Source: Sanghuangporus weigelae (lineage: Eukaryota; Basidiomycota; Agaricomycetes; Hymenochaetales; Hymenochaetaceae). From it: a stretch of 64,000 nucleotides of DNA. The notes below the pieces were generated by a model. The model did no database searches. It saw only the letters and a list, made by a program, of their open reading frames with translations, and had not been told where the DNA came from. How positions within the stretch are numbered: the first letter of the stretch is position 1; every line of letters begins with the position of its first letter. Shown one piece after another: positions 23,827 to 56,688 of the stretch. Location of the stretch: the NCBI GenBank assembly GCA_033182465.1, contig CP137327.1, positions 1,612,001 to 1,676,000 of the forward strand. The letters run 5' to 3'. A program made the translations under genes and the position numbers.

Positions 23827-24727
23827 AGTTTCAATCAATGAGGTACACCTTTAATTAAAGATATAAGATAAATTTGCTAAGGGACAATGCCCTACTCAGC
23901 TGGTTCTTAAATAAAATTTCTGTCTAGCTTACTTAACTACACAATAACTATCAACTACAGCCTTGCTATTGGCTTAGACAATATGTTTCATCTAACACTA
24001 ATTCTTTTCTGTAGTGCTAACACCGAGACTTTTCTCTAGTGTTGAAATACAATATTTCTGTTATATTAGAAAGGTCTGTTAGCTCCTACCACTAATACTC
24101 TGCAAAGGTTTAAGTTTTCTCCCACAACCATCACTCTAATGCTTCTTCTGATCTGCATTATATCACATGTTAATCCTGTCTATCAATTCTTCCTATGGTT
24201 TCTTCTTCTATTTCTAGGCTGGGACCACCTAATGGGTATCAAGTCATCACTTTTAGCACTCTGTTCCTGGACCAAGCTTTTGCCTCTTAATTCTTGATCA
24301 TAGAAGAGACTGTGATATCAGGATTTGAGATAGCAAGCCTTGTCGATCTTTGTCGGTTAATCTTGGTGGCTGTATATACTCAGCCACTCTTTTTAGTGTC
24401 TTACTGCTACTTTAATGTCCAAAGACAGCTAAAGGTAAATTGGCCAATCAACTTTTACTATGGTGTTTCAACACAAGGTCTGAAGATAATGCTAACTGAT
24501 CCAAGCTTGCACACAGACCTTCAATGTATAGATGTCCCTATTACTAAGCCATATGAATACTTTGTGATTGTAAGTGCTTAATCTTTATTCAGTAATAGTT
24601 GATCTGCAGTTTATTTCAAAGGTTTGGGCTTATGTCAAATCTTGACATCAGCTGCCTCTCTTATCATCAACCATTTTACAAAAATTTTGAGGAGCCACTC
24701 TAAAAGAACCCAGCTTTGTTAATATGC

Positions 24728-27520: not shown

Positions 27521-27768
27521 CTTCGTGTTAGGACCAGTGCTTTTAGACGAGGTGGTCAGTCTAAGCGTACCGGAACAAGTCCCTGCTTATTCCTTCTGAT
27601 GATAATTGATTGGAGATGAAACGAAGGTTATAGATGTACTACTTTAGAAGCGAGCGATAGGCTCAAGCTTGACCTCAGTAGTAGAACAGGGTTTCAATCA
27701 AAGGGTACAGTTTTCGATTGAGAGTACAAAATAATTTTGCTGAGGGACAATGCCCCGCTCAGCTGGCC

Positions 27769-27776
27769 CTTAAATA
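27769..27776 (-). promoter_or_regulatory. TATA-like box of D LTR
   Basis: TATTTAAG on the minus strand, about 350 bp after the end of the U3 ORF and about 240 bp before the LTR end. The same site is in the other LTR (about 38432-38439). It is a candidate core promoter only. Confidence 0.4.
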
Positions 27777-28128
27777 ACCTATTTACTAAATAGTACCGAC
27801 TACCTATTACTACCGACTACAGCCTTGCTATTGGTCTAGACAATATGTTTTCTCTGACACCAGTACTCTACTCTGGTGCCAACACCGATACTTTCCTCTA
27901 GTGTTGAATCACAATACTTCTACCATATTAGGAGGGTTTGTTTGAGTCCTACTACCCCGATGCTTCGAGAAGCTTCTTCCGTGCTTCCTCCGATCTGCAA
28001 TCGTTATCACATGTTAATCTCTCCTTATCTTTACCCCGCGATCCTTCTCCGTTCCCAGACGGGTTCCCATGATAGTTGCCAAGCTATCGCTTCTCTGGCG
28101 CTCCGTTCCCAGGCCGAGCTTCTGCCGC

Positions 28129-29040
28129 TTAATCCTCGATCATGGGGGAGATAGTGATATCAGGGTTAGAGATCGGCAGAGCTTGCCGATCTTCTCCCGG
28201 CGCATGAGTGTACTCCGCTCCACTCCTTCTGTGCCTCGCCGCGACTTCGATGTCCGATAGTTGTAGTCCTGGGCCCGTGGTTAGCCGCAGCCTCTGTCCA
28301 AAGTGCTCGCGGCCATTCCACTCGTCAACTGTAATTACCCCTGGCTCTGACGCTCGCCAAGCCTGCATCAAGCGTTCTATCGCTTCTTCCGTAAGATGTT
28401 CAATGTCCGAAGGTGGCCGCTTGTAAACTGGCCAATCCACTTCCACTGCCGTGTGACTGCACAAGGTCTGGTGCCGATGCTGATTGATCCAAGCTCGCAC
28501 GCCGACCTTCAATGCATAGACATCCCTATCGCTAAGCCATATGGATACCTCATGGTCGTATGCGCTCATTCCGCGGTTCGGTAATGGTTGGTCTTCTGTT
28601 CGTTCCGAGGGTCCGGGCTTATGCCGAATCTTGACATCGGCTGCTTCCCTTGACACTAACCGTTCCATGAAGTTCTTCATGAGCCATTCCGCAAGTACCC
28701 AGCTTCGTTGGTAGGCCAAGTAACAATTGGCGCACACCAAGCTCTCGTGTACAAATCTTCTAGTTGCACCACGCCGATAATGTCTTCGTTGCAGGAGTTC
28801 CGTATACCTTGCGACATTCCTTTCTTCCATCGCCGCCAGACTGCGTTCCGGCGGTGGAGTATGTCCAATGTGCATATTAGTTAGTCCTAAATGCAAATCA
28901 TTAGAGTCCTCCGTGTCTTCTCCAGACGATCCGTGGTTTGCTACTCTTGAGTCGCCACCACTGTTCTGCCGTAGTAGCCTTTCGAAATAGTCTTGATTTG
29001 GCATCGCAACTCGGTGTGTAAAACTTAGCCCACGCCGCAT
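28129..29040 (-). CDS. LTR-encoded U3 protein of D, 303 aa (3' LTR copy)
   Basis: Not a recognised family. The ATG lies 24 bases inside the LTR (MRRGLSFTHRVAMPNQDYF); a second in-frame ATG follows 12 codons on. Residues 30-60 are Ser/Gly/Asp rich; about 85-130 is a basic and hydrophobic segment with CANCYLAYQRSW (Cys-x2-Cys, no second pair); the rest is mixed alpha/beta-like, ending LPISNPDITISPM. No signal peptide or membrane segment. Same strand as gag and pol and ahead of the TATA-like box, a placement like the U3 ORF of mouse mammary tumour virus, though no sequence similarity is claimed. Homologous remains persist in the old LTRs D' and D''. Confidence 0.65.
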   Translation of the reverse strand: MRRGLSFTHRVAMPNQDYFERLLRQNSGGDSRVANHGSSGEDTEDSNDLHLGLTNMHIGHTPPPERSLAAMEERNVARYTELLQRRHYRRGATRRFVHESLVCANCYLAYQRSWVLAEWLMKNFMERLVSREAADVKIRHKPGPSERTEDQPLPNRGMSAYDHEVSIWLSDRDVYALKVGVRAWINQHRHQTLCSHTAVEVDWPVYKRPPSDIEHLTEEAIERLMQAWRASEPGVITVDEWNGREHFGQRLRLTTGPGLQLSDIEVAARHRRSGAEYTHAPGEDRQALPISNPDITISPMIED

Positions 29041-29064
29041 TAGATAACCACAATTTTCGTAACA

Positions 29065-29302
29065 TTCCTCCTCCTAAGATCCACTTCGGACTGCAAGGAG
29101 ATTGTGGATCCAATTAATTGTGGTAGCCATAATCTTGCTGTTTCGTTTGGTTCCCTACCGGGCCTCGATTCCGTGTCGGCCTCCAACATACTAGCTGCTT
29201 CCTAACAGGCTAGGATATAGTTAATGGATATATCATATCCTTCCAGCATCAATTTCTGACGCTAGGGATAGTTTAACGACGTGTCCGGGTCGAGCTTCTT
29301 CT
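29065..29302 (-). other. D 3' untranslated segment with polypurine tract
   Basis: 238 bp between the pol stop and the 3' LTR. The AGGAGGAGGAA tract directly abuts the LTR and would prime plus-strand synthesis. Nothing else is recognised. Confidence 0.6.
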
Positions 29303-32300
29303 CTAAGCCTCACTGACCTCGCTATCCGTCGAGTCAGCCTGATACCAATCGTTATAGGAGAGTCCTTCCTCTAGTCCTTCCATCCTATTGTATTTTCGTA
29401 TAGGTAAAGCGTTTGCTCGGGTGAATGGCCGTTTAGCAGCTCTCCAATGATGCTTGTGCCATTCTGGATAGGCAAAATCTCGTTGCTTTATACCTGTCTT
29501 GTTGTCGTATTTCCTTCGTTGTCTAGTTCTCTGCAGCACCTTTCTTCCATAAAGCGTGCTCAGGTAATAATCGTCCGCTCTGCGTACATCCAGAAGTCTC
29601 TGCGCCAAAGCGACAATTCCTGCAACCTTCTTTCTAAAGGGAAGGTTCACGGCGTCCGGCCAACCGTTCCTTTCGTGATACTCTCGCAATTTTTCGGGGG
29701 CGTTGCGTAGCCCTTCTACAGGTTCCCAGGTATTTTCCTCTTCTGGGTAGCCGAGCCATTTAACCTGGTATTCCCATGTGTTGTGCCGTTTCCTCATGTC
29801 CCGAATTACTTCTACTTCGTATTCGGCTTCTCCAGCAATGACTTCTGGTGGTGGTCTTGTTCGTTGTGTCGGATCTTTTCGTTCTCGATAGGGAATTAAT
29901 AGTCCTGCGTAAAACACCGGGTGGATCCTCATTTCCTTTGGAAGGTCCAGCTCGTAGTTGACTGGCCCATGCTTCGCGACGATCTTGTAAGGTCCAATAT
30001 TTCGGTCACCTAATTTCCTAGTAGGGACTAATAGTGTTAGATTTCGGCCATCTAACATGACCTTATCTCCGATCTCGAATTCCGGCATCGGGCCTCGGTG
30101 TTTATCTGCAAACTTCTTCATTGCGTCTCGTGCCTTAGTAAGTGCTTCCAACGCTTCTTGTTGATGCTTCATCCGCATTGCCACATAGTCTTGAGTACCT
30201 TGGATCGGAAGCTTAAATCCTACTTCCGGCTGAAACCCATAAACCATTTCAAACGGTGACTTCCCAGTACTTGAGTGACTTCGACTGTTATAGGCAAATT
30301 CCGCCATAGGAAGATGTTTGTCCCAATCATCCTGTTGCAGACTGGAATAGCATCTTAGCAGCTGTTCCATTTCCTGGTTCACTCGTTCCGTTTGTCCGTC
30401 TGTTTGTGGATGATATGCCGTACTAAGCTTCGTTTCGATTCCAAGGGCCTGGTTCACTTGTTCGGTAAATCGGCTTGCAAACTGCGGTCCCCTGTCGCTA
30501 ATTACTGTTTTTGGAGTTCCAACCTTGCTGTAGACATGTTTGATCATCATGTCAGCAGTGGTTTTCGAGTTTGCATTTACAGTGGTAGGTATAAATGTTC
30601 CCATTTTTGAGAACCGATCTACCACCACTAGTATTGCATTGTTTCCTTTGCTCGTAGTTGGAAGTCCGGTGACGTAGTCCATAGTAATTTCTTCATAGGG
30701 CCGATTCATTACTGGCAGCGGTTGTAAAGGCGGTTGCGTCTTTCCTCGTCTCGCCTTCGTCCGTTGGCACGTATCGCAAGTGCGCACATATTCTTCGACC
30801 CATTCCCTCATCTTTGGCCACCATACTCTTCGTTCCAGTTTCGTGATAGTCTTGTCTATCCCCGGGTGTCCTGCTGCTGGAGCGTCATGGCACTGTCGTA
30901 CTAATTCTCGTTTAATTTCATCAACTGGTGGGATTACCATTTTTCCATCCCTCCACCAGTATCCTTCTTCGAAAGTCCCGATTTCTTGCTCCTTGGACTT
31001 TTCGTATCCTGCTCGAATCTTTTCTCCCAGTTCCGAACCTCCTGTAATTTCAAACACCCGTATAGTGCGCACGGGCAGTTCTTGGTTCCGGAACAGCTCT
31101 GGGGGAAGTAGGACTTGTTCTGGTACATCTTCAACGCCTTGTTCGTAGTCAGGCCGTCGTGACAGTGCATCCGCTCTTGAATTCTTGGTTCCTGGTCGAT
31201 ACTCGATTCTGAATCGAAATCTGCTGAGAAAAGTAGCCCATCTCGCCTGGCGTCCACTGAGTTTTCTAGCTCCCATGAAATACCGGAGGTTTGCCTGATC
31301 ACTAATTACCCGAATTTCATGTTTAGCTCCTTCCAAGTGGTGTCGCCAATTGCTCAAAGCTTTGACAATTGCCAGCAATTCCTTGTCCATTACTGGGTAG
31401 TTGTTCTCGGCGTCTCGATAGGTATTCGACCAATATCCAATAGGATGCAAAATTCCATCGTCACTTTCTTGCGAGAGCACTGCTCCCATCGCAAAGTTAG
31501 ATGCATCTGTTTCCAGTACAAATTGTTTCTCGTGATCGGGTCGTACAAGCATAGGTGCAGATGTGAAGGCTTCCTTCAACTTGACGAAGCCTTCTCGTTG
31601 ACGATCTCCCCAAGTAAATGTCTTCTTGCCAGACATGAGTTCCGTTAGCGGCCTAGCGATCTTGGCGAAGCCTTCGATAAATTTTCGGTAGAAGTTCGCA
31701 AAACCAATGAACTTTCGAATGTCTCGCTTGCTTGACAAATCTGGCCATTCTTGAACTGCTTTTACCTTGTAGGGATCCATCTGCATGCCCGATTGGTTAA
31801 CAACAAATCCTAGATAGTCGAGCTCCTGTTTGGCAAAGTAGCACTTCTCTGGCTTGCAAAAGAAGTCTGCTTTCCTTAACCTGCGCAATACTTCTGCTAG
31901 CAGGTCCCAGTGTTCCTGTTTCGTTTCCGCATAGATAATAATGTCATCTAGATAAATGAGTATGCCCTGCCCAATCATGTCCTGAAAGAGCTCGTTCATT
32001 GCACGTTGGAATACCGCAGGTGCATTCATTAGTCCAAACTGCATTACCAGCGGCTGGTAAACCCCCATGTGAGTTCTGAAGGCGGCATACTTTTCATGCC
32101 CTGGATGGATTCGCACATTGTTATACCCGCTTCGTAAATCCAGTGTAGAAAACCATTTCGCATGAGCCAAATCGTCCGGTAGCATATGTAATAGAGGCAT
32201 TGGCTGGTGATCCGGTATGACCACCGCATTCAATCCTCTGTAGTCGATTACGATACGATACTCCGGTTTGCCATCCTTTCCTAGTGTTTTCTTGGCTATA

Positions 32301-34456
32301 ACGAATACTGGTGCACAAGTGCTTGCTTTTTCGTTGGCAGGGACGTTGTTCCCTACAACACGAATCCATCCTTTCTTCAGGTCATCGTGAATCCATTCTT
32401 CTACCGCTCGTTTCTCGGCAGGAGCGAGTGGATATACTGGTCCGGGTTTGGGTAGCTCTGCATTGGGTAGCAGTTCTATCTTCATATCCCATTGGCTCGA
32501 GTTAGGTAGCCGTCTAGCAGCATCCTTGTCAAACCTATCCCGGAAATCCCAGATTTCTTTTGGAAGAATATCTTCGAGAGTTTGTGTTCCTGCATGGTCT
32601 GCCATCCTTTCGTCGAGTGCTTTCTCCTGAGCATACTTTTGAGCTATGCTGTTGTATTTGAGGAGTCGTTCTCTTCGTGATGCGACTTGTCGCTGCTCTA
32701 GTCGGCGAATCCAGGTAGAAGGCTTGGGTAGCGCTTCTAATCGAGAGCCGTCCTCCACCCACATCGAAGTGGTGGGCTTATGCGATCCTAGGTTACCCTT
32801 GAACACCGTTTCGGATCCAGCTTTTCTCTCTAGCACTTTTCCTTTCACCCTTTCGTGCGGCTGCTTAACCGAGTCAACAGGCGGAAGCCATTGGCAACTC
32901 TTTTGCCCCTGCGAGAGCCTCTGCTCCATCGCGGCATATCTAATTGACCTGCTACCTTTACCGTTTGTTTTCCCTGTCGGAGCAGGGCCCTGCATTTTGG
33001 CTTCTCGCCATGGTCTTCGCGGGCGCACTTGAGCTCCCAAAGCCAGCCTACTTGATGCTTGCGGCGTACTGTCTTTGGCTCTGTGCCGGAATGGGACTAC
33101 CCTCCCTTTGGGGTGGACCATTTCTCCAGGCCTTAGTCTACCCTTGAACGACGTCTCGGGCCTGGTCGCTCCCTTTTCTCTCGAAGTGGGAGATCTCGCT
33201 AGGTGGCCGAACCTAGTGCGCTGCAGAGCATTAGTTCTCTGAGGCTCCCGACCCCGCATACTCCTGCTAGTACGCTTGTTTCGTGTGGTGAAACTAACCG
33301 ACTGCTTCTGCACTGCCAGGGTTGAGTCATTTTCTCCCTCGTGCATGGATGGAGGAGTCCACTCCACCCTAATACTCCTTATTACAGGGTTCGAATCGGT
33401 ACCACTTCCCCCACTGCGTTGTCTTCGAACTCGTAGCGGATCAGAGGCATAGTGCCCTGGCTTTCCTGCCTTTGGTGGCACGCTCGGCCTCTTTCCTTTC
33501 TTCGTATCCGATCCTTCTGAGTCGACAGACATTTGCCCTTGAATCTCGGCTTGCACTCTTGTTTGTGCTTCGTGTGTCGTGGTTGAAGTTTCCTCTTGTC
33601 GTGCGGCATTCTTCTTGATCTCCTGCAGCTGTAAATGCGCTCCGTACATGCTTCCATACCATTGGTAGAGCATTTCTGAGTCGGACCCTTTGTCTATGTC
33701 CCTCATCATCGCATTATACACTGCTTGATCTGCCTCTTCTAGGGAGTTAAAATCGAAAAATTCCCTACGGTCAAGGGTTATCCTGTGTATGTCATCCTTC
33801 GTATAGAATTGCCATTTTCCGACTTCCTTGTGGAGGACGGATTTGGATTCTGGATGCATGTCGCTTAGAAACACTATTGGTGGTTCGATTTCGGTTTTCT
33901 CCATTGGTACTCCTTCTGGTGGTAGATTCGCGGGTTCCTCGACTTCTTCCTCACTTTCGGTGTAGTGTCCTGAATCCATATCGCTGTGGTAGTAGACCCT
34001 AGTTTCCCATTCTTCTTCCCGTTCGTCTTCTGCGTCCCTTCCCCAGTTCTGGGGAGCGTATTTGGGAACCTTTCGCCATCGTTTGCGCTTCCTGGTTCGT
34101 CTCGAGGCAATAGTTAATTCGATCATACGCAGACGTGCCGTACCATTGAAGTTAACTTCTTTGCTTCCTTTGCTGAGCGTTCCTTTGGTCCAATCGATGG
34201 TTGGCTTATACTGTTCAAGCCAATCATTCCCTATGAGAAACTTGTCTTCATGAGTGTCTACCACGGCGATGTCCATTAAACCTCTAGTAATCCCTGTATC
34301 CACTATTGCTCGAACATTCCGAGTCCATCCACCATGATTAATCGATCCATCGGCATTCCGGATGGTATAGTTACCTTCCGCCGGCACTGTTTTTAGTCCT
34401 AGGCTCTGTACCACCGTTGGACTAATAGTAGTGATTGCGGATCCGGAGTCAATCAT
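29303..34456 (-). CDS. pol: D pol polyprotein (PR-RT-RH-IN-chromodomain), 1717 aa
   Basis: The open frame begins at the retropepsin active site (MIDSGSAITT), so the true product probably starts upstream by fusion or read-through from gag. Rough residues: retropepsin 1-90; a long basic, low-complexity linker 100-620; RT about 680-880 with the YLDDIIIY catalytic box near 833; RNase H about 950-1080 (ETDASNFAMGAVL); integrase zinc domain about 1185-1235 (CHDAPAAGHPG, CDTCQR) and DDE core with MDYVTG, SDRGPQF and PQTDGQTERVNQE (about 1258-1355); chromodomain about 1545-1600 (YQVKWLGYPEEENTWEP). It copies RNA to DNA and integrates it; chromodomains target silent chromatin. Domain order is Ty3/gypsy chromovirus. 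The linker is unusually long. Confidence 0.95.
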   Translation of the reverse strand: MIDSGSAITTISPTVVQSLGLKTVPAEGNYTIRNADGSINHGGWTRNVRAIVDTGITRGLMDIAVVDTHEDKFLIGNDWLEQYKPTIDWTKGTLSKGSKEVNFNGTARLRMIELTIASRRTRKRKRWRKVPKYAPQNWGRDAEDEREEEWETRVYYHSDMDSGHYTESEEEVEEPANLPPEGVPMEKTEIEPPIVFLSDMHPESKSVLHKEVGKWQFYTKDDIHRITLDRREFFDFNSLEEADQAVYNAMMRDIDKGSDSEMLYQWYGSMYGAHLQLQEIKKNAARQEETSTTTHEAQTRVQAEIQGQMSVDSEGSDTKKGKRPSVPPKAGKPGHYASDPLRVRRQRSGGSGTDSNPVIRSIRVEWTPPSMHEGENDSTLAVQKQSVSFTTRNKRTSRSMRGREPQRTNALQRTRFGHLARSPTSREKGATRPETSFKGRLRPGEMVHPKGRVVPFRHRAKDSTPQASSRLALGAQVRPRRPWREAKMQGPAPTGKTNGKGSRSIRYAAMEQRLSQGQKSCQWLPPVDSVKQPHERVKGKVLERKAGSETVFKGNLGSHKPTTSMWVEDGSRLEALPKPSTWIRRLEQRQVASRRERLLKYNSIAQKYAQEKALDERMADHAGTQTLEDILPKEIWDFRDRFDKDAARRLPNSSQWDMKIELLPNAELPKPGPVYPLAPAEKRAVEEWIHDDLKKGWIRVVGNNVPANEKASTCAPVFVIAKKTLGKDGKPEYRIVIDYRGLNAVVIPDHQPMPLLHMLPDDLAHAKWFSTLDLRSGYNNVRIHPGHEKYAAFRTHMGVYQPLVMQFGLMNAPAVFQRAMNELFQDMIGQGILIYLDDIIIYAETKQEHWDLLAEVLRRLRKADFFCKPEKCYFAKQELDYLGFVVNQSGMQMDPYKVKAVQEWPDLSSKRDIRKFIGFANFYRKFIEGFAKIARPLTELMSGKKTFTWGDRQREGFVKLKEAFTSAPMLVRPDHEKQFVLETDASNFAMGAVLSQESDDGILHPIGYWSNTYRDAENNYPVMDKELLAIVKALSNWRHHLEGAKHEIRVISDQANLRYFMGARKLSGRQARWATFLSRFRFRIEYRPGTKNSRADALSRRPDYEQGVEDVPEQVLLPPELFRNQELPVRTIRVFEITGGSELGEKIRAGYEKSKEQEIGTFEEGYWWRDGKMVIPPVDEIKRELVRQCHDAPAAGHPGIDKTITKLERRVWWPKMREWVEEYVRTCDTCQRTKARRGKTQPPLQPLPVMNRPYEEITMDYVTGLPTTSKGNNAILVVVDRFSKMGTFIPTTVNANSKTTADMMIKHVYSKVGTPKTVISDRGPQFASRFTEQVNQALGIETKLSTAYHPQTDGQTERVNQEMEQLLRCYSSLQQDDWDKHLPMAEFAYNSRSHSSTGKSPFEMVYGFQPEVGFKLPIQGTQDYVAMRMKHQQEALEALTKARDAMKKFADKHRGPMPEFEIGDKVMLDGRNLTLLVPTRKLGDRNIGPYKIVAKHGPVNYELDLPKEMRIHPVFYAGLLIPYRERKDPTQRTRPPPEVIAGEAEYEVEVIRDMRKRHNTWEYQVKWLGYPEEENTWEPVEGLRNAPEKLREYHERNGWPDAVNLPFRKKVAGIVALAQRLLDVRRADDYYLSTLYGRKVLQRTRQRRKYDNKTGIKQRDFAYPEWHKHHWRAAKRPFTRANALPIRKYNRMEGLEEGLSYNDWYQADSTDSEVSEA

Positions 34457-34596: not shown

Positions 34597-35625
34597 TTAA
34601 AAATCCTCCTCGGAATCCTCCTCGAGGGTGTGCGAAGCCCGTTCCTTCCGCCTTGGTAACTTCGCCCGTTTGTCCAGTAATTCTTCCATTTCGGAATCGC
34701 TATCAATCCCAACTTCCCGGCGTTTTAGGAAGCGGCCAGTCTTGCCAGATCGTTTCTTTTGCACCCGTCTCTTGTAGTTGGTTCGGTGTCCACGGCTTCC
34801 CTGTTGTTCTCGCCCTACATTGTTGCAGTCCCGTGCAAAATGACCTGTTTTGCCGCATACCCAGCATGCCCCGGAATTTTCCCCTCGGGACCCCCTAGTA
34901 AAGCGCCTAGACATATCAATGTCCATAGGCTCACCCTGAAACTCAGCTGGATGACGAGCTTCAGGGGGCACCGGCGTGTACGATACCGCCTGCCCGTCTT
35001 TAAACATAGGGGTATACTTCTTATTACTGCCAATTACTTTGGCTGCTATTAGACTGTCCTCCAGATTTTTCGCGTTATCCTGCCATTGGGTCAGGTCCCA
35101 ATTAGGGTGTTCCGTATTTGTAAGGAGTGCCTTTAGGATGGTCTGGTTCAGTCCACGTTTGAACTCGTAAACCAGTGCTTGTCCATTGTAATGCTTTGGT
35201 AGTCTCATCCTGATGTCGTTGAAGGCCCTACTATACAGCTTTACCCGCGCCCGTTCCTGATAAATCGTTCGTATGTTTCGCTCGGCCTCTTCCTCTAGTC
35301 CGAAAATGCCATTGTGGTTGAGCGCTAATTCGTTCCATAGATCTGTCTCGGTGTCCCATCCACCCTTTTGGTCAATAATCCAATTATTCGTGACCGGTTC
35401 TTGCTTCCAGGTGGAGACTAATCGATTCCTATTCACAGCCCATTTGCCGTTAACCCAAGTCTGAGCTTGTCCTCGTAAACATTCCAAAATGATCTTAACC
35501 CGTTTTTCTGGATTGTCGGGATGTTTCTCGTTCAACCGACTGATCATTTGATTCTGAAAGTTTTCAAGCGACTCATAGGGGTTTCCCTTAAACAAAGGGT
35601 ACTTCATGATATCTTTGTTAGACAT
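34597..35625 (-). CDS. gag: D Gag, 342 aa
   Basis: Starts MSNKDIMKYPLFKGNPYE. The capsid-like part spans residues about 10-200 with FQNQMISRLNEKHPDN and ECLRGQAQTWVNGKW, typical of gypsy gag. One CCHC knuckle, CWVCGKTGHFARDC, is at about 254-267, followed by a strongly basic stretch (YKRRVQKKRSGKTGRFLKRR) and an acidic C-terminus (LEEDSEEDF). It would form the particle shell and bind RNA. It lies 140 bp upstream of the pol frame on the same strand, consistent with a frameshift, read-through or spliced route to Gag-Pol. Confidence 0.92.
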   Translation of the reverse strand: MSNKDIMKYPLFKGNPYESLENFQNQMISRLNEKHPDNPEKRVKIILECLRGQAQTWVNGKWAVNRNRLVSTWKQEPVTNNWIIDQKGGWDTETDLWNELALNHNGIFGLEEEAERNIRTIYQERARVKLYSRAFNDIRMRLPKHYNGQALVYEFKRGLNQTILKALLTNTEHPNWDLTQWQDNAKNLEDSLIAAKVIGSNKKYTPMFKDGQAVSYTPVPPEARHPAEFQGEPMDIDMSRRFTRGSRGENSGACWVCGKTGHFARDCNNVGREQQGSRGHRTNYKRRVQKKRSGKTGRFLKRREVGIDSDSEMEELLDKRAKLPRRKERASHTLEEDSEEDF

Positions 35626-35827
35626 ATTGATCTAGACGAATGCAACCAAAAATTTGTGAGTATCACTCTCATTCAGCGCATTTAATAATACATGGTTAAG
35701 TAGTTAACTATCCAGCGAGTTCCACCTCCGCTTTCCAGCTAACCACCTTACCCTTCCTGCCCGGTCGGTTCTTGGGCGTCTTCCTTACCTTGGCGAGCTC
35801 TCCGCTCCGAGCCAAGGCCTATCTCCT
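35626..35827 (-). other. Spacer between D extra ORF and gag
   Basis: About 200 bp with no recognisable domain. It may contain the translation or splice signals for gag, but I see none I can defend. Confidence 0.35.
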
Positions 35828-37621
35828 TTATTCCCGAGCTTCAACTCTCTCCTTGCCACTCTCATGCTCTTCGCTTTCCTCTTCCGTTTCCCAGTCGTCG
35901 TTATTCGATGTGAGATAATCGTAGTCGCTTGTATACGGAAATATACCAATATCGGGACCTCGTACCCAAACCACCCGTGTCATGTTCGCTACCCCCTGCA
36001 CCGGTTCTCCCACTACCACTGTGGTAGACTCCGGCCGTGGAGGGCAGCTACTAGGACGCAAGATAGGATCATAAATGAATTCTGATTCTGGGGAATACTC
36101 ACTCGCTGCCTGAAGCCTTTCCTCCCTTTCCCCAATTGTCTGGGCGCTAGGGGTTGGAGTTCCAGGTGGCGAGTTTTCGTGAGGGCCTTGGAGTCCATTC
36201 CGTTCGAAACGATATCCGTTTGCCCCAAGTCGTTGGGGGCGAACCTCGACTAACACTCCTTCTTCGTTCCACATCAGCTCAGGAAATGCTTCTCCTCCGA
36301 GCCCTGGGTTTCGCCAGCCATCTCCCGTAGGCCACGGTCGATTTTCCGTGGGTATTACCTCCCTCAGCAGCTCTTCGGCTTGCTGGTCAAGGTCTTCTGT
36401 CTGGCTGGCGGTGGAAACATAGTCCTCGAGTTCCTCACCATCGAGCTGGGCGACGACTGACTGTTCTTCCAGTACTTCCTCTTGTTCTAGCGTTTGCGGG
36501 GGTCCTGTTTCGGTTTGATCGTTTGCCTGGCGTTGTCCTGCATCTTGGAGATATTCGTCGATCAACTGTGCAATACGTGGCCTGCCTTCTCCCTGTATTG
36601 GAATGAGAGGTGGTGGCATGTCGTCGGAGTCAGCTGTTAAGGTTGCGAAGCGACTAAACAGCTGTCCTCTCCCGGCGAGTGGTGATTCTGGGGAAACCCT
36701 TCCTTCACGTCTTGCTTCTCGCATTCGGTAGGACTGCCTAGACCGGATTGTTTGCTGGATTCGACGAATACCTTCGGTAATGGAGTAGTGGCTCGCGGTT
36801 TCTTCTTCGGTGTTGCTGATTCGCGCTCGGGTAGCTTCGACTTGCTCGATCAGATAGGCGACCTGCGTATGAAGCTGCAGGAAGTCTACACCACAGAGTC
36901 GGACGATCTCTTGTTGGGCATTGACGAGTTGTTGAGTCATGGCTGATTGACTGCCATTAGCCGTCGCCGTTATTGCACCAAGAAGTCGTCCTTGCAAAAG
37001 TCCAAAGGCGAAGTTCAGCCTTGTGTCCTGCATCGTGGTGACTCGATCTGTCTGCTCGTTGATCGTCGTTACCATTCCCTCTAGGGTGTGTTCGAGGGTG
37101 TGGTGTAGGAATTCTCCCAGAGTCTGTCCTTCTACTGTGATGTGTTCGGAAAATTCTGAACCCATGTCATAGAGTCGAGAGACAGTAGCGGTGAGAGTTC
37201 GCATGGACCGATCAAGGCTTGTAAGTCGGAGATCGAGGCTGATGATGGAATTCCGTAGTCGGGCGAGAGCTTCGTCAGCATTCCCGTTAGTGCCGACCAT
37301 TCGATCCAGGCGTCCATGTAGACCGTCGAGTCGTTCTCGGATGCGGTCCAAAACGGATTCCAGGTGTTCTCCAGCTCCGTGCTGAGGTATCGCCAGTCGT
37401 TGAGCGTAGAGTAAAACTCTCCGACCGGTTTGACGGAGTGAGGACATTCCTTGGATGATTTCCCGTTCCAGCCAGACCCGTACCGTTGCAAGGCCGTGAA
37501 GTACGCCTCCTCTACCTCCGCATTGTTGAGTAAGGACGTATACCAGGGAAGAAAACCAGAGGACGCTTGATGCAATCCAGAAACTAGTCCAACAAGCTTG
37601 CCACAGTTCCATCGGTGACAT
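35828..37621 (-). CDS. D extra protein upstream of gag, 597 aa, membrane segment and coiled coils
   Basis: Not a recognised gag, pol or envelope domain. It starts MSPMELWQACW. Residues about 7-30 are a hydrophobic, Trp-rich segment (WTSFWIASSVLWFSSLVYVL), a possible signal anchor. Residues about 75-300 show heptad-like hydrophobic spacing typical of coiled coils (ESVLDRIRERLDGLHGRLDRM; SLDLRLTSLDRSMRTLTATV). The last half is Pro/Glu/Ser rich and ends in an acidic tail. The position before gag is unlike a classical env, which follows pol. Possible roles are a membrane-linked accessory or particle scaffold. Another open frame overlaps its start. Confidence 0.6.
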   Translation of the reverse strand: MSPMELWQACWTSFWIASSVLWFSSLVYVLTQQCGGRGGVLHGLATVRVWLEREIIQGMSSLRQTGRRVLLYAQRLAIPQHGAGEHLESVLDRIRERLDGLHGRLDRMVGTNGNADEALARLRNSIISLDLRLTSLDRSMRTLTATVSRLYDMGSEFSEHITVEGQTLGEFLHHTLEHTLEGMVTTINEQTDRVTTMQDTRLNFAFGLLQGRLLGAITATANGSQSAMTQQLVNAQQEIVRLCGVDFLQLHTQVAYLIEQVEATRARISNTEEETASHYSITEGIRRIQQTIRSRQSYRMREARREGRVSPESPLAGRGQLFSRFATLTADSDDMPPPLIPIQGEGRPRIAQLIDEYLQDAGQRQANDQTETGPPQTLEQEEVLEEQSVVAQLDGEELEDYVSTASQTEDLDQQAEELLREVIPTENRPWPTGDGWRNPGLGGEAFPELMWNEEGVLVEVRPQRLGANGYRFERNGLQGPHENSPPGTPTPSAQTIGEREERLQAASEYSPESEFIYDPILRPSSCPPRPESTTVVVGEPVQGVANMTRVVWVRGPDIGIFPYTSDYDYLTSNNDDWETEEESEEHESGKERVEARE

Positions 37622-38058: not shown

Positions 38059-38188
38059 TCAGTCTCAATGTGTCACAGGCACAAGAAGAGAACCCTCCTG
38101 AGGCAGAGCAATACTTACTGATCGTTAGTGGGTATTTGCACTACGAAACAGCAAGATTGGTTACCCCAAGATTGGAGCAAAATTATAA
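38059..38188 (-). other. D leader next to 5' LTR
   Basis: 130 bp following the 5' LTR on the minus strand, beginning TTATAATTTTGCTCCAATCT. No canonical TGG-starting primer binding site is visible, so the priming mode of D is unclear. A GTAAGT-like donor motif occurs in it. Confidence 0.4.
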
Positions 38189-39727
38189 TGTTAGGACCAG
38201 TGCTTTTAGACGAGGTGGTCAGTCTAAGCGTACCGGAACAAGTCCCTGCTTATTCCTTCTGATGATAATTGATTGGAGATGAAACGAAGGTTATAGATGT
38301 ACTACTTTAGAAGCGAGCGATAGGCTCAAGCTTGACCTCAGTAGTAGAACAGGGTTTCAATCAAAGGGTACAGTTTTCGATTGAGAGTACAAAATAATTT
38401 TGCTGAGGGACAATGCCCCGCTCAGCTGGCCCTTAAATAACCTATTTACTAAATAGTACCGACTACCTATTACTACCGACTACAGCCTTGCTATTGGTCT
38501 AGACAATATGTTTTCTCTGACACCAGTACTCTACTCTGGTGCCAACACCGATACTTTCCTCTAGTGTTGAATCACAATACTTCTACCATATTAGGAGGGT
38601 TTGTTTGAGTCCTACTACCCCGATGCTTCGAGAAGCTTCTTCCGTGCTTCCTCCGATCTGCAATCGTTATCACATGTTAATCTCTCCTTATCTTTACCCC
38701 GCGATCCTTCTCCGTTCCCAGACGGGTTCCCATGATAGTTGCCAAGCTATCGCTTCTCTGGCGCTCCGTTCCCAGGCCGAGCTTCTGCCGCTTAATCCTC
38801 GATCATGGGGGAGATAGTGATATCAGGGTTAGAGATCGGCAGAGCTTGCCGATCTTCTCCCGGCGCATGAGTGTACTCCGCTCCACTCCTTCTGTGCCTC
38901 GCCGCGACTTCGATGTCCGATAGTTGTAGTCCTGGGCCCGTGGTTAGCCGCAGCCTCTGTCCAAAGTGCTCGCGGCCATTCCACTCGTCAACTGTAATTA
39001 CCCCTGGCTCTGACGCTCGCCAAGCCTGCATCAAGCGTTCTATCGCTTCTTCCGTAAGATGTTCAATGTCCGAAGGTGGCCGCTTGTAAACTGGCCAATC
39101 CACTTCCACTGCCGTGTGACTGCACAAGGTCTGGTGCCGATGCTGATTGATCCAAGCTCGCACGCCGACCTTCAATGCATAGACATCCCTATCGCTAAGC
39201 CATATGGATACCTCATGGTCGTATGCGCTCATTCCGCAGTTCGGTAATGGTTGGTCTTCTGTTCGTTCCGAGGGTCCGGGCTTATGCCGAATCTTGACAT
39301 CGGCTGCTTCCCTTGACACTAACCGTTCCGTGAAGTTCTTCATGAGCCATTCCGCAAGTACCCAGCTTCGTTGGTAGGCCAAGTAACAATTGGCGCACAC
39401 CAAGCTCTCGTGTACAAATCTTCTAGTTGCACCACGCCGATAATGTCTTCGTTGCAGGAGTTCCGTATACCTTGCGACATTCCTTTCTTCCATCGCCGCC
39501 AGACTGCGTTCCGGCGGTGGAGTATGTCCAATGTGCATATTAGTTAGTCCTAAATGCAAATCATTAGAGTCCTCCGTGTCTTCTCCAGACGATCCGTAGT
39601 TTGCTACTCTTGAGTCGCCACCACTGTTCTGCCGTAGTAGCCTTTCGAAATAGTCTTGATTTGGCATCGCAACTCGGTGTGTAAAACTTAGCCCACGCCG
39701 CATTAGATAACCACAATTTTCGTAACA
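38189..39727 (-). repeat. D 5' LTR
   Basis: 1539 bp, same length as the 3' LTR and differing at about three sites by eye. It is flanked outside by CTTCG (39728-39732), the 5-bp target duplication. Confidence 0.95.
38792..39703 (-). CDS. LTR-encoded U3 protein of D, 303 aa (5' LTR copy)
   Basis: Same 303-codon frame as in the 3' LTR, open over its full length, differing by three residues. The three nucleotide differences I see between the LTRs all fall in this frame and all change an amino acid. That is too few to infer selection. A transcript of the 5' copy would have to start upstream of its own LTR; the 3' copy could be carried as the last gene of the genomic RNA. Confidence 0.6.
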   Translation of the reverse strand: MRRGLSFTHRVAMPNQDYFERLLRQNSGGDSRVANYGSSGEDTEDSNDLHLGLTNMHIGHTPPPERSLAAMEERNVARYTELLQRRHYRRGATRRFVHESLVCANCYLAYQRSWVLAEWLMKNFTERLVSREAADVKIRHKPGPSERTEDQPLPNCGMSAYDHEVSIWLSDRDVYALKVGVRAWINQHRHQTLCSHTAVEVDWPVYKRPPSDIEHLTEEAIERLMQAWRASEPGVITVDEWNGREHFGQRLRLTTGPGLQLSDIEVAARHRRSGAEYTHAPGEDRQALPISNPDITISPMIED

Positions 39728-39732
39728 CTTCG

Positions 39733-42017
39733 GATGTGGTCAGAGTGGACACGGAATGAGAAATTGCCCTGACATTAAGGAATTGCTTAGTCAAGGAGTG
39801 ATCAAGTATAATCATACAGGAAGGCTGCAGATAAATGACGGCTCATCAATCAGTAGAAATTTTGATGAGCCTATCATACAGGCAGTAAAGCGTCAACAGC
39901 CTTCAGCTAAGAAGATTAATTTTATTACCTGTGAAGAACCAGAGGAATCAGATGGCATGCAAGAGGCTCTGTATATTTATCCTAAAGAAGAATTTTCTGG
40001 CTTTCAAGTGATACGGTCTCAGAAGGGAATTACTTCAAGACATAATGGAATTGTGAATGAACCAAGACAGAAACTGACTAGGTCACCCAGGAGTAGACCT
40101 CAAACAAAGACATCAGATGAAACACCACAGCTGCCTGTGGTCAAGGAAATAAGTAGTCCATCTATCATTCAGCCCACCATGCAAGATGTAATTATGCAGG
40201 ATCATCAACTTATCCAGAAAGTAGATCCATGTAGAAGTATACCACAGCCAAAGGATAGGCCTGATAGTAAAGGAGAAAAGAATTTATCTGCACATCACTT
40301 TCCAAGACAGTCAGAAATATCTTCTAATGTCAACCTGCATGTAGTGGCAGATAGGATTCTAGCACAAGACCAACTTATTTCAACCTGCGAGCTATTAGAA
40401 GCATCACCAGGATTGGCACGTATCATATCAGACAAGCTTCAGTATAAGAGTGTTAAGCCAAATGCTGAGACAGTGATGGAAACAGAAGTCGAGGAAAACA
40501 CATCACAAGCATATTGGACAAAGCCTTTTATCTCAAAGACACATGGACACTTGATTCAACTCACTGTCAGTTTTAGTGGGCATGATGTCAAAGCAATTTT
40601 AGATACAGGATCACAGATGAATGTCTGTCATGCGAGGCTTGTGAAACTAGCTCAGATGTCAATAGACAGAACCTAGCGCATGAATATGAATGACGCTAAT
40701 AGAGGGCAAGGATCCTTAGAAGGTATGCTTTCAGGAGTCAGAATTGATATAGGCAACATTGCAACAACAGGCAATGTATATGTTGGAAGTCAAGTCTCAT
40801 TTGACCTACTGCTTGGAAGACCATGGCAGCGAGGAAATTTAATTTCCATTGACGAGTGTCCAGATGGAACTTATCTGCAGTTCAAGGATTCAGATGACCC
40901 AACGCGATCAAAGACCAGATATGAGCTGCTAGTCATCCCAGATGGAAGCAATGAGGTGTGGGATTATGATCCTGCAACATGGTTTGCTGTTCAGCCAGAT
41001 GTGGATGATCATGATGATTATCAGAAGAAGTTTAGGCAGTTTATTAAGGATTGTGAGCAGGCAATAGCAGACAGGCTGGAAGAAGAAGAAAAAGGAGAAG
41101 TTTATGCATCATTTGGAAGTCCAGTGACATCAACTGAATGCATTGTTAAAGGAATGGGAGATTGAAAAGCGAGGCACCTCGATACCAGTGGAATTGACGC
41201 TTATTGAGCAGAGCCCTTCAAAGTCAGAAAACGCCCATAGTGAACCAGTTCCAAAGCCAGTAATTTACTTTGAGCGTAAAAGAATGCATGGTTCAGGAGA
41301 GACTGATAGCCTAGACTCAATGCCAGAGCTCAGAGTCATCTCTGAGTTGGAGTCAGAACCAAATGGACCAGTTGACTGTTATCTGAGAGACGACGGAAAC
41401 TGGAAGTACGACATGACAGGAGGAATTGAGAAAGCCCATTCAGAGATACAGCTTTATGAGGAAGTCCTGAAGCCCAAGGAGAGGCTTGGCTTGCTTTCAA
41501 GAAAAGAGGCTTCGGTGATTCAAAGGATCAGGGCAAAGTATTTTAGAAGTGACAGCCACAATGAAGCTAGAGCAAAGCCAGCTCAGCAACTAATAACCAG
41601 ATACTGGCAGGATGGTGCAGGAAATGATTCTAAGGACTTAGGAGAGTCATCCAGTAAGAGAAGGAGTCAATTGGACCAAGAGTCTATTGGCGAAAAATTT
41701 ATAGGTACATTACATCCTATTTATGAGGACCCAAAGATGATGAATGCAAAAGTTTCCCCTTTTGCCACCCCAGATGTGGAAATTGGAAGTACCCAACAGC
41801 CTTATCAAGATGATATTATTATCAGGGCTGACAGTTCAGTGGTTAAAAACTTACAGGGTGTGCAAAATCGAAATTGAGATGATTCTAACATTTCTAGAAA
41901 TCGCAATAACTCGACAAAACATAGGACGATCGGTACAGTTAAGGTACCATTCGAAAGCTCTCGCCAGTATGAACCAAAAGAGTCCTCAGCAGATGAAATC
42001 GAACGTGTTCTGACGAA
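39733..42017 (+). pseudogene. E segment: gag end, linker and retropepsin
   Basis: Continues E beyond D. An Asn/Glu/Ser-rich linker (about 39760-40480) leads to a retropepsin domain (about 40520-41000) with AILDTGSQMNVCHARLVKLA and later DLLLGRPWQ, the typical active site and C-terminal ILG-like motif. An acidic, low-complexity region follows (to about 41880) with no RT similarity. The arrangement gag, retropepsin and an unknown tail recalls fungal gag-protease proteins (DUF4100-like, from memory). Fossil, with few breaks. Confidence 0.72.
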
Positions 42018-42209: not shown

Positions 42210-43380
42210 AATGACGACTACCAACCAATATGCATACAATTTGCTTACCAGTGCTGTACCGAAGCTAGAGTCTTCGGGGGAAAACTGGGCCATATTTTCG
42301 TACCGATTCGAAGATGCTGTGTGTGTCAAACGCGTCTGGGGCCATTTCAATGGCACTTCTATTCGTCCTGGACCTGCTGCAGCGACTGCACCTTCAGGAA
42401 CGCAACTGGGGCCTCAGCAATGGCCCCCTGTGGGAACTGGGAGCGCGCTTGGCACATCGCAATCCACAGGTACTTCATCCTTAACCCCAGCTACGCCCCA
42501 AGCTCGTTGAGCAACGAGATCCCAGACCCAGACAGCAGCAGCAGCAGCAACAGCTGCTCCAGCTACTCAGACGCAACCGCAAGCGACTGGAACTGTACCT
42601 CCAGCTCAAATGCCCTTGCCACCTTCTGCACCACCTACGCTGACGCCTCCTACTGCTGAAGAAAAGAAGGCTCAGCAAGATTGGGACAATAACGAAGCTT
42701 TGTCCCAATACTTACTTTCGCAAAGAATTCCCGATTCAACTTTGATGCGTGTTTGCCAATTCCCTACTGTTGCGCAACGATGGACCGCAATTGCCATTGA
42801 GTACACAGACAAGTCTATGTATGCTCAAACGTCCCTTAAAGCCGAATTCCTTGAGTCGAAATGTCCTAAAGGATCAAATGTCAAAAATTTCTTGTCAGAT
42901 CTTCGTTCAAAATGAGAAACACTCACCCAGTCTGGTGTAATTGTTTCTGATGATGATTTTCGCTCTACAATCATCTCTAGCTTGCCAGGACACCTAGCCA
43001 AATTTGCATCAGCGCAAATAACATCAGCTGAACTTACTACTAGGAACACCGCTGCTATGTTTGGTTTACAGCTGCCTCCTGGTGCCCTCCAAGCAATGTG
43101 AACTGTCAATCCTGACGTCCTGATCCATATTGTTTCTGACGAATCTGAAAGAGAAGCCAAGGAACGTGAAAAACGAACTACGAACCGTGATCAGAAGCAG
43201 AACATGAACAGCAAAGTCAAAAATGAAGCACTTACTGTTCAGAGCCATCCCAGAGATACACGAACTTGCTACAATTGTAATAGGACTGGCCACATCGCAA
43301 AGTACTGCCACTTGCCTTGCAAAGACAGAAATTGTCAGAATGGTTCGAATAATCAAAACAAACTAAGGAACTCACCAAAG
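42210..43380 (+). pseudogene. F gag region
   Basis: Begins MTTTNQYAYNLLTSAVPKLE, a copia-type gag start (KLESSGENWAIFSYRFEDAV, compare the common LxGxNYxxW theme). A Gln/Ala/Pro-rich insert with a CAG-repeat tract (about 42531-42556) follows, then a UBN2-like helical core (about 42660-43090: ALSQYLLSQRIPDSTLMRVC, YAQTSLKAEFLESKCP) and one CCHC knuckle CYNCNRTGHIAKYC (about 43264-43305). It would form the particle and bind RNA. Fossil. Confidence 0.8.
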
Positions 43381-52699: not shown

Positions 52700-52882
52700 A
52701 CGCCATGTAGCAATTAGCACACACCAAGTTCTTATGAACTATTCTTCTAGTTATGTCTTATCAAAAATGCCTTTGCTGCAGGAGTTTTGTATATCTTGTG
52801 ACATTGTGATCCTCCATTGTTGCAAGGCTTTGTATAAGTGAAGGAGTATGACCAATGTACATATTAGTTAACCTTACAGCTA

Positions 52883-53955
52883 GTTGCAAAATTGTTGGCA
52901 ATCACGTGATTTTACCACTTTTCTCGCCATAAGACCCTCAAAACACAGATAAAATCATATCTCACCCAAATCTCAACATTTTCACATCATCTAAGTTGCT
53001 AAATTCATCTTTTCGAAAGCAATTTTGTATAGGAAGAATGAATGAGAAAATAGAGCAAAACATGACCCCAAAATGGCGAAAATATTGTTTTTTGCCTCTT
53101 CCTTGCATGTGCATTTTTTTCTGTGATCCCTGCTGGTCCAGCACCTCCTCAAAGCTATCCAGAATGATAATATGATTATAAAATGAATTTACAGACTGAG
53201 TTTGAGTTGAATTGTGTACCAGAATGTGCTGCTTTGAGCCATGCCTGAATCACTCAAAACTCATCATTTCCCCCTAGCCTCCCAGGCTCCAGGAAAAATT
53301 CTTACATGCCAGATTCATGCATGTAAATTCATTTTAGATATAATAGACTAGGTTTGTGTACTAGCTAAGGCCTCAGCATCCACTGGTGAGCTGGGCTGAA
53401 CAAGTGATTCTGGTTGTATGCATCATTTTAGACAGCATCTTCCCAGCTCACCAGTGGATGCTGAGGACCTAGCTAGCACATAAACCTAGTCTATTATATC
53501 CAAAATGAATTTACATGCATGAATCTGGCATGTAAGAATTTTTCCTGGAGCCTGGGAGGCTAGGGGGAAATGATGAGTTTTGAGTGATTCAGGCATGGCT
53601 CAAAGCAGCACATTCTGGTACACAATTCAACTCAAACTCAGTCTGTAAATTCATTTTATAATCATATTATCATTCTGGATAGATTTGGGGAGGTGCTGGA
53701 CTAGTAGGGATCACAGAAAAAAAATGCACATGCATGTAAGAGGCAAAAAACGATATTTTCGCCATTTTGGGGTCATTTTTTGCTTTATTTTCTCGATTGT
53801 TTTTCCTAAATGAAATCCCTTTCAAAAAGATGAGTTTAACAACTTAGATAATGTGAAACGGTTGAGATTTGGGTGAGATATGATTTTATCTGTGTTTTGA
53901 GGCTCTCATGGCGAGAAAAGTGGTGAAATCACGTGATTGCCAACAATTTTGCAAC
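52883..53955. mobile_element. MITE2: 1.07-kb near-perfect palindromic MITE in D'
   Basis: Starts GTTGCAAAATTGTTGGCAAT and ends with the inverse, flanked by TA (52881-52882, 53956-53957). The arms are about 510 bp each (52883-53395 and 53445-53955) around a spacer of about 50 bp, so nearly the whole element can fold back. No transposase. It shares with MITE1 the order of motifs: ATATCTCACYCAA, ATCTAAGTTGCTAAATTCAT, a CTTCCTTGCATGTGCA-like motif and GAATTTACAGAC. The arms stay highly alike, which suggests recent origin or arm-to-arm correction. Confidence 0.9.
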
Positions 53956-56033: not shown

Positions 56034-56688
56034 TGTTATGAAAATTGTGGTCATCTAATGCAGCACAAGCTAAGACATTTTATACACTGAATTATGCAGC
56101 CAAATCAGGACTATTTCAAAAGACTGCTAAGGCAGAACAGTGGAAGCAATTCTAGAGTGGCAAACTATGGATCAATGGATGAAGACAGGGAGAACCCTAA
56201 TGATTTGCAATTAAGATTATCTAATATGCATATTAGACATACTCCTCTGCCAGAACACAGTCTGACAACTATGGATGATAGAAATGTTGCAAGATGTACG
56301 AAGCTTTTGTAATAAAGGCATTATCAATGTGATGTGACTAGGAGATTTGTACACAAGAACTTGGTATGCACCAATTGTTACTTAGTCTACCAACAAAGCT
56401 GGGTACTCTTGGAATGACTTATGAAGAATTTTATAGAACAATTAGTGACAAGGGAGGCAGACAATGTCAAGATTCAGTATAAGTCTGAACCTTCAGAATG
56501 GACAGAAGACTAACCATTACTAAACTATAGAATGAGTACATACAACTTCAAGGTATCTATCTGGCTTAGCAATAGGGATGTCTATGCACTAAAGGTTGGT
56601 GTGCAAGCTTAGATCAATCAGCATTGGCTCTGGACCTTGTGCAGTCACACAGTAGTAGAAGTGGATTGGCCAGTTTACCTTTGGCCGC
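56034..56688 (+). mobile_element. D'': old D-family LTR fragment, plus orientation
   Basis: Starts TGTTATGAAAATTGTGG and follows the 5' half of the D LTR, including the U3 ORF start (56094 onward, MQPNQDYFKRLLRQNSGSNS against MPNQDYFERLLRQNSGGDS in D). It is strongly A/T-decayed and broken. It is cut by the A3 insertion after the CCGC (56685-56688); the rest would lie beyond the window. Confidence 0.82.

Follow-up and report, generated by a model that had tools for sequence, protein, structure and literature searches.

Long terminal repeats (LTRs) of retrotransposons are commonly regarded as control regions that encode no protein, and genome annotation masks them. The described gene that comes closest to the one presented here is sag of the mouse mammary tumour virus (MMTV), a betaretrovirus, which in the account cited is located mostly in the U3 section of the LTR (PMC4667437). 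One of the sag mRNAs is described as starting in the 5' LTR, using the env splice donor and continuing from an acceptor just upstream of the frame in the 3' LTR (PMC3026287). The present work concerns a stretch of 64,000 nucleotides of the fungus Sanghuangporus weigelae (Hymenochaetales, Hymenochaetaceae; assembly GCA_033182465.1, contig CP137327.1, positions 1,612,001 to 1,676,000 of the forward strand), called the window below, which contains a chromodomain Ty3/gypsy retrotransposon with a conserved open reading frame (ORF) in the U3 of both LTRs. We propose that this frame encodes an accessory protein, probably zinc-binding, which would be expressed from the 3' LTR by splicing in a layout like that of MMTV sag. 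A probability of about 0.72 is given to this reading as a whole.

It is important to compare the two genes. Like sag, the S. weigelae gene is in sense orientation in U3, ahead of the presumed LTR promoter, and is copied to both LTRs. The LTR is unusually long in each case, about 1.3 kb in MMTV according to the sources on that virus and 1.5 kb here. However, the fungal gene belongs to a Ty3/gypsy chromovirus in which no env was recognised, and an adaptive-immune function like that of Sag is not expected in a fungus. Pfam includes a Sag model, and the Sag family is absent among the Pfam matches listed, all of them weak (E up to 1 for the window protein and up to 0.5 for its homologues). By sequence, the U3 protein is thus not recognisably related to Sag.

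Additional ORFs (aORFs) occur in LTR retrotransposons of plants and fungi, such as Grande gene23, RIRE2, Retand and Boty (PMC7264820). They resemble the present gene in being extra conserved proteins, other than gag and pol, kept across the copies of a family. However, the aORFs described in that source are found in the internal region and many are antisense (PMC7264820), while the gene here is inside the LTR, in sense, twice per element, and is kept in solo LTRs. The ORF3s of bdelloid rotifers are likewise genes beyond gag and pol, reported to be typically expressed from spliced messages; unlike the protein described here they are recognisable enzymes, env or transmembrane proteins, and the words 'within the LTR' are absent from the available text of that source (PMC5408684). 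ORF0 of the rice element Retrosat2 lies upstream of gag-pol and is not described as LTR-encoded in the available sections (PMC3485330); it resembles in position a 597-codon ORF of our element, not the U3 gene. None of the open-licence papers listed (including PMC11302176, PMC8282616 and PMC11117352) describes, in the text available, an LTR retrotransposon with a conserved protein gene inside the LTR, which does not by itself show absence from the literature, Repbase-type libraries being outside the scope. The nearest exception is a plant clone in which ORFs from a gene finder had homologues in LTRs, with no conserved LTR gene claimed in the sections available (PMC4031123).

The gene and the repeats that contain it are located in the window as follows:

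38792..39667, minus strand: U3 gene of the 5' LTR from Met13, 291 codons and stop; the open frame reaches 39703
28129..29004, minus strand: U3 gene of the 3' LTR from Met13, the copy able to be in the element's own transcript
38189..39727, minus strand: 5' LTR, 1539 bp, TGTTACG...CTAACA
27526..29064, minus strand: 3' LTR, 1539 bp
38432..38440, minus strand: TATA-like box TTATTTAAG of the 5' LTR, at LTR nucleotide 1288, downstream of the U3 gene
27769..27777, minus strand: TATA-like box TTATTTAAG of the 3' LTR, position transferred from the 5' LTR
39728..39732, minus strand: target-site duplication (TSD) CGAAG, 5' side
27521..27525, minus strand: TSD CGAAG, 3' side

A sequence-only reading of this DNA had pointed to the same open frame in both LTRs, in the sense of gag-pol and ahead of a TATA-like box, and this was borne out. 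The 303-codon frames (38792-39703 and 28129-29040) are both on the minus strand, as are gag and pol, and differ from each other at 3 residues. The frame spans LTR nucleotides 25-936 and the TTATTTAAG box starts at nucleotide 1288; since the frame is ahead of the TATA-like box, it is located in U3. The position of this box suggests that transcription starts downstream of the frame.

The element extends on the minus strand from 39727 down to 27526. Its pol contains, in order, the Pfam domains gag-asp_proteas, RVT_1, RT_RNaseH, Integrase_H2C2, rve, SH3_Tf2-1 and Chromo, the order protease, reverse transcriptase, RNase H and integrase with a chromodomain at the integrase C-terminus that is characteristic of Ty3/gypsy chromoviruses. 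The ends are also those of a Ty3/gypsy element: both LTRs are 1539 bp long, start with TGTTACG, end with CTAACA and are thus of the TG...CA type, a polypurine tract is present, and the perfect 5-bp TSD CGAAG flanks the element. The two LTRs differ at only 3 of 1539 sites, all of them replacement changes in the ORF, from which it follows that the insertion is young.

The genome of 33.87 Mb in 13 contigs was searched for further copies, and all copy counts are lower bounds. The U3 protein has at least 109 matches. The sequence-only reading had staked its proposal on finding an open frame in most young copies: none of the 63 listed full-length matches with at least 94% identity contains a stop, and these matches include 60 complete young LTRs. 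Among five more full-length matches at 74-89% identity, four contain stops. The young set used below comprises the 60 complete LTRs at 95% DNA identity or more, out of 79 loci retrieved: 27 solo LTRs with identical 5-bp TSDs, 16 5' LTRs, 16 3' LTRs and 1 solo LTR without a TSD. The TSDs match in all 13 LTR pairs that were recognised by their spacing. No premature stop was found in any of the 60 LTRs and no indel in the frame, the six independent indels all being located outside it (chance about 0.006 if indels are evenly spread). The frame is intact in every one of the 27 solo LTRs with matching TSDs, as expected from the suggestion that solo LTRs would keep it.

Copies chosen through an ORF search could hide broken frames, and LTRs were for this reason also sought by their non-coding end. 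Forty of 92 candidates were scored in this way; 36 of them adjoin the full open frame and 2 adjoin partial frames in truncated LTRs, and none of the 40 has a frame broken by a point change. The other two of the 40, L028 and L051, appear to be the far ends of LTRs split by later insertions. Two head-to-head LTR arrangements were observed (L026/L028 at C1:1693384-1696952 and L032/L027 at C1:1731951-1734524). L026 and L032 have the common flank AGCAC and may have belonged, as its two ends, to a single element before a later insertion of about 28 kb separated them.

The proposed length of the gene had to be revised. The frame of 303 codons stands, but the likely start of the gene is Met13, giving 291 codons at LTR nucleotides 61-936. 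This start was chosen because Met1 is not conserved, Met13 is, and the homologues begin there or beside it. All 60 young LTRs have ATG at Met13, whereas at codon 1 ATG is found in 28 and ATA in 27; in the 69 copies extending to the start of the LTR, ATG is found at Met1 in 34 and at Met13 in 66. In the annotated homologues of other Sanghuangporus species the start coincides with the equivalent of Met13 or adjoins it. Codons 1-12 have 9 replacement and 2 silent variants, as compared with 15 and 30 in codons 101-205. The gene probably does not include these first 12 codons.

Selection on the frame was assessed by a permutation test in which each variant was moved to a site of the same base and CpG context. 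All of the selection tests rest on one genome. For codons 1-303 of the 60 copies, 74 replacement, 81 silent and 0 nonsense variants were observed against 103, 45.7 and 6.3 expected; for codons 13-303 the numbers are 65, 79 and 0 against 95.6, 42.6 and 5.9. One solo LTR, L063, is 95.8% identical with the differences concentrated in the ORF half, and supplied 40 of the 110 solo-private changes, so the variant tests were repeated without it. The overall depletion stays: the remaining 59 copies have, in codons 13-303, 52 replacement, 53 silent and 0 nonsense variants against 69.7, 31.2 and 4.1 expected, with P 0.0002 for the silent excess (the floor of the test) and P 0.014 for the lack of nonsense variants. 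Replacement changes are thus depleted about 2.3-fold relative to silent ones, and no nonsense change is found where about 4 are expected. L063 itself (C1:1175007-1178915) has a non-coding part nearly identical to that of the window LTR (K 0.015) and an ORF with a synonymous divergence (dS) of 0.18, and looks like a mosaic between subfamilies.

The variants were also divided by their timing, without L063, and described by the observed ratio of replacement to silent changes over the expected ratio. This value is 0.26 for variants present in three or more insertions and 0.31 for those in two or more. Variants shared by the two LTRs of a single insertion should be older than that insertion; their value is 0.35 (P 0.02). 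It is 0.59 (P 0.07) for variants private to a solo LTR and 0.69 (P 0.28) for other single-copy variants. Differences between paired LTRs, which arose after insertion, amount to 4 replacement, 0 silent and 7 non-coding changes in 13 pairs, and the window element supplies 3 of the 4 replacement changes. Since the depletion is strongest in shared variants and weaker in private ones, selection seems to act on the protein while the element is mobile, and the constraint appears to fade after a copy has settled in the genome. Selection during mobility also supports the earlier suggestion of an accessory protein; the protein might equally be self-regulating, as suggested in the same place.

A comparison was also made with nine more distant copies, a group which includes L063 and of which seven contain stop codons, skipped in the calculation. 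The ratios of nonsynonymous to synonymous divergence (dN/dS) are 0.17, 0.23, 0.31, 0.27, 0.20, 0.19, 0.30, 0.17 and 0.17, far below the value near 1 which the sequence-only reading had named as speaking against it. Pairs among the nine copies have values (omega) of 0.13-0.55. In the two wrong frames, tested for 5 copies, dN/dS is 0.73-2.36.

A second LTR family, which together with the candidate splice sites described below is an addition to the sequence-only reading, carries a homologous gene. The search with the U3 protein also gave weak matches, with about 22% identity, in frames of about 250 codons. These belong to an LTR of 1502 bp (TGTTAGAAATT...GATTCTAACA) with perfect 5-bp duplications in all three copies examined (CATGC, GAGTG, CCTAT). 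Its frame starts at LTR nucleotide 57 and TATAAAAG is located at nucleotide 1292. No DNA similarity beyond chance words was found between the two LTR families. The proteins of both contain, in the same order, a CxxC motif, an H...P block, PNxG..Y.H and HxxxC. Reciprocal genome searches between the families reached best E-values of 2e-7 and 5e-8, and a profile comparison by hhalign gave E 1.8e-5.

Five of the six second-family copies that were compared have stops, six stops at five codons. All of these stops (in L074-L079) are C-to-T changes, CGA to TGA or CAA to TAA, and 5 of the 6 are CGA to TGA, a pattern as expected of methylated CpG decay after insertion. The uncorrected pairwise omega is 0.13-0.48 in all 15 pairs; shared variants comprise 13 replacement and 17 silent changes, and private ones 45 and 35. 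The second family is old and decaying, but it was apparently under the same kind of constraint in the past. An autonomous copy was sought among 14 LTR ends, none of which is clearly paired; within the sole candidate spacing (C11, 7.4 kb) a pol match of 34% is found, but on the opposite strand. One solo LTR of this family (G000 C13:97173-98674) is nested antisense within the U3 gene of an older first-family LTR.

Outside this genome, homologues of the U3 protein were found in other fungi of the same genus. A search of 5.8 billion proteins, which needs common 5-residue words and may miss distant relatives, gave three homologues only, all from Sanghuangporus: one in S. sanghuang with 67% identity, from a cluster of 26 members, and two in S. 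vaninii with 65% (8 members) and 73% over half the length (1 member). All are labelled in NCBI as plain 'hypothetical proteins'. The cluster size of 26 fits a repeat. A profile search had been suggested by the sequence-only reading; it was run on the protein database, where the profile of 7 sequences added no homologues beyond these three. The same database returned nothing for the second-family protein.

The sequence-only reading had recognised no protein family, and indeed no Pfam family matches the U3 protein above its cut-off. The two weak matches, DUF7419 and DUF1570, are below their cut-offs and were dropped, as were FeoC, YdjM and DUF5319 for the second family. The one PDB match of the profile is a designed scaffold (E 0.0056), read as chance. 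An AlphaFold2 model (4 proteins) was unusable, with a predicted local distance difference test score (pLDDT) of 41.5 and a predicted template modelling score (pTM) of 0.35, and was not used for a fold search. Thus no known fold or family was found in the Pfam and PDB profile searches. Four residues, Cys103, Cys106, His190 and Cys194, are conserved as CxxC and HxxxC motifs. They suggest a bound metal, and the protein is probably zinc-binding.

The signals which could serve the expression of the gene are:

38113..38118, minus strand: candidate splice donor GTAAGT, 70 nucleotides after the 5' LTR, present in 16 of the 16 5'-LTR copies examined
29091..29102, minus strand: candidate splice acceptor ATCTCCTTGCAG, 26 nucleotides before the 3' LTR and 86 nucleotides before Met13

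The sequence CTCCTTGCAG is kept in all 17 3'-LTR copies picked by script, as well as in L046, a copy that the script had passed over. One of the 17 comes from a sister element that has diverged but whose sequence around the site is nearly the same.

On the basis of this arrangement the following mechanism is proposed. A true protein gene belonging to the element would be present in each LTR. Every insertion doubles this gene, since both ends of the new DNA receive the U3 located at the 3' end of the genomic RNA. Of the two, the 5' copy would be upstream of the element's own promoter, and the 3' copy inside the genomic transcript. The 3' copy would then most likely be expressed from a spliced RNA in which the leader donor is joined to the acceptor just before the 3' LTR, placing Met13 behind 86 nucleotides of the second exon. 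The candidate leader donor and the acceptor just upstream of the 3' LTR frame resemble those described for one sag mRNA, being here consensus sites only. The product would be a soluble protein of about 33 kDa, probably zinc-binding through the CxxC and HxxxC motifs, and would serve the element as an accessory factor in its propagation. Its most likely role would be that of a regulator binding the RNA or DNA of the element, in activation, RNA export or anti-silencing; our best guess is that it regulates the RNA of the element or the state of its chromatin.

Several observations weigh against this proposal. The solo-private variants show a trend only, with a ratio of 0.59 and P 0.07 once L063 is dropped (0.37 with it); weak constraint is expected there if selection ends at insertion, yet this is no positive test. 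The post-insertion sample is small, with 11 differences. The candidate splice sites are consensus matches in young and similar copies. On the proposed spliced RNA, a 54-codon upstream frame from the LTR junction precedes Met13, so that a simple splicing model would have to invoke leaky scanning, or else a start within U3. The regulatory role is suggested by the conserved Cys and His residues and by analogy, in a protein of no known fold or family. For the second family, stops are found in 6 of the 7 full-length copies, and the hhalign probability of a relationship is only 78%.

Of the other explanations, the one to be taken most seriously accepts a real protein, but with an mRNA from a promoter near the pol end, inside U3 or in the flanking host DNA; we regard this as possible, though doubtful. 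A start in or just before U3 would let solo LTRs express the protein too. The gene immediately adjoins the edge of the LTR, the sister element retains TATA-like stretches in the interval from pol to the 3' LTR, and a start inside the LTR avoids the upstream frame at the junction. MMTV sag is also described as having several promoters, one of them in U3, in the sections cited (PMC4667437, PMC3026287, PMC9412291). However, the GTAAGT donor and the pyrimidine-rich CAG acceptor, both candidates, are each suitably placed for splicing. The protein could also be self-limiting and restrain the copy number, with solo LTRs adding dosage. Ty1 p22 is such a self-restriction factor, derived from the element's own gag. 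The intact gene in the 27 solo LTRs with TSDs would allow the dosage to rise with the copy number, but the constraint is strongest in lineages that went on copying, which favours a helper protein. Unlike p22, the U3 protein has no similarity to the element's own gag, neither matching the other's places in the window at E up to 1e-3. A self-limiting role is therefore considered unlikely.

Retention of the gene by the host for its own benefit has a still lower probability. Co-option of this kind has been suggested for endogenous sag copies, in the sections cited (PMC3026287), and many solo LTRs retain an intact frame. The copies are young, however, the solo-private changes are less constrained than the shared ones, and the paired LTRs differ by 4 replacement changes and 0 silent; nor was an intact single-copy relative outside the LTR families recognised in searches of the own genome, in which short fragments were only partly examined. 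A third protein of envelope type, placed where retroviruses have env, would also be in sense and after pol. This is highly improbable for a gene that lies within the LTR instead of between pol and the LTR, and whose product has no transmembrane stretch (highest 19-residue Kyte-Doolittle mean 0.53). Finally, with copies 95-99% identical, a chance or relic frame might be kept open through their youth only. The tests of stops, indels and dN/dS, together with a constrained homologue in an LTR of no DNA similarity, leave this explanation with practically no probability.

The order along the element is 5' LTR, 597-codon ORF, gag, pol with chromodomain, polypurine tract and 3' LTR. Its remaining features, and relics of the U3 gene elsewhere in the window, are:

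35828..37621, minus strand: additional ORF (597 codons) located after the 5' LTR and before gag, no Pfam family above cut-off
34597..35625, minus strand: gag, 342 codons, with a CCHC zinc knuckle
29303..34456, minus strand: pol, 1717 codons, with protease, reverse transcriptase, RNase H, integrase and chromodomain
29065..29075, minus strand: polypurine tract AGGAGGAGGAA, adjoining the 3' LTR
56034..56687, plus strand: relic of an LTR of this kind that has diverged; its U3 gene is decayed, with 68% identity over residues 7-209
24411..24727, minus strand: older U3-gene relic, 56-62% identical
52701..52934, minus strand: older U3-gene relic, 56% identical

The product of the 597-codon ORF is acidic (isoelectric point 4.75) with a hydrophobic N-terminal stretch. 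This ORF has at least 19 matches in the genome; 16 are full-length at 97% identity or more, and 15 of the 16 are without stops. The ATG of gag is directly preceded by a pyrimidine-rich, acceptor-like site, TTTTTGGTTGCATTCGTCTAG (35626-35660, minus strand), and splicing to it may produce an RNA for gag that lacks the 597-codon ORF. Opposite-strand ORFs at 26469-27599 and 39756-40676 (both plus strand) abut the two ends of the element, and the latter has weak aspartyl-protease matches. The insertion target may have been another mobile element. A Copia pol is found at 43204-45591.

A selected gene inside the LTRs means that each insertion delivers two copies of it, and that solo LTRs are copies of a gene instead of mere promoters. 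It also means that LTR-encoded proteins can go unrecognised, as the NCBI labels of the homologues illustrate. In U3 a single repeat serves as both coding sequence and promoter, and every copy of the gene travels via the 3' end of the RNA; the element offers a non-animal system for asking why a mobile element would place a regulator there. The two LTR families keep the protein at the same position without detectable DNA similarity, and for this reason the gene may be long held. We put at about even the chances of a wider reading, in which chromoviruses of the Hymenochaetales, and perhaps beyond, would be 'complex retrotransposons' with a long-held LTR-encoded regulatory gene, a parallel invention of the U3 gene, with spliced expression, outside the retroviruses.
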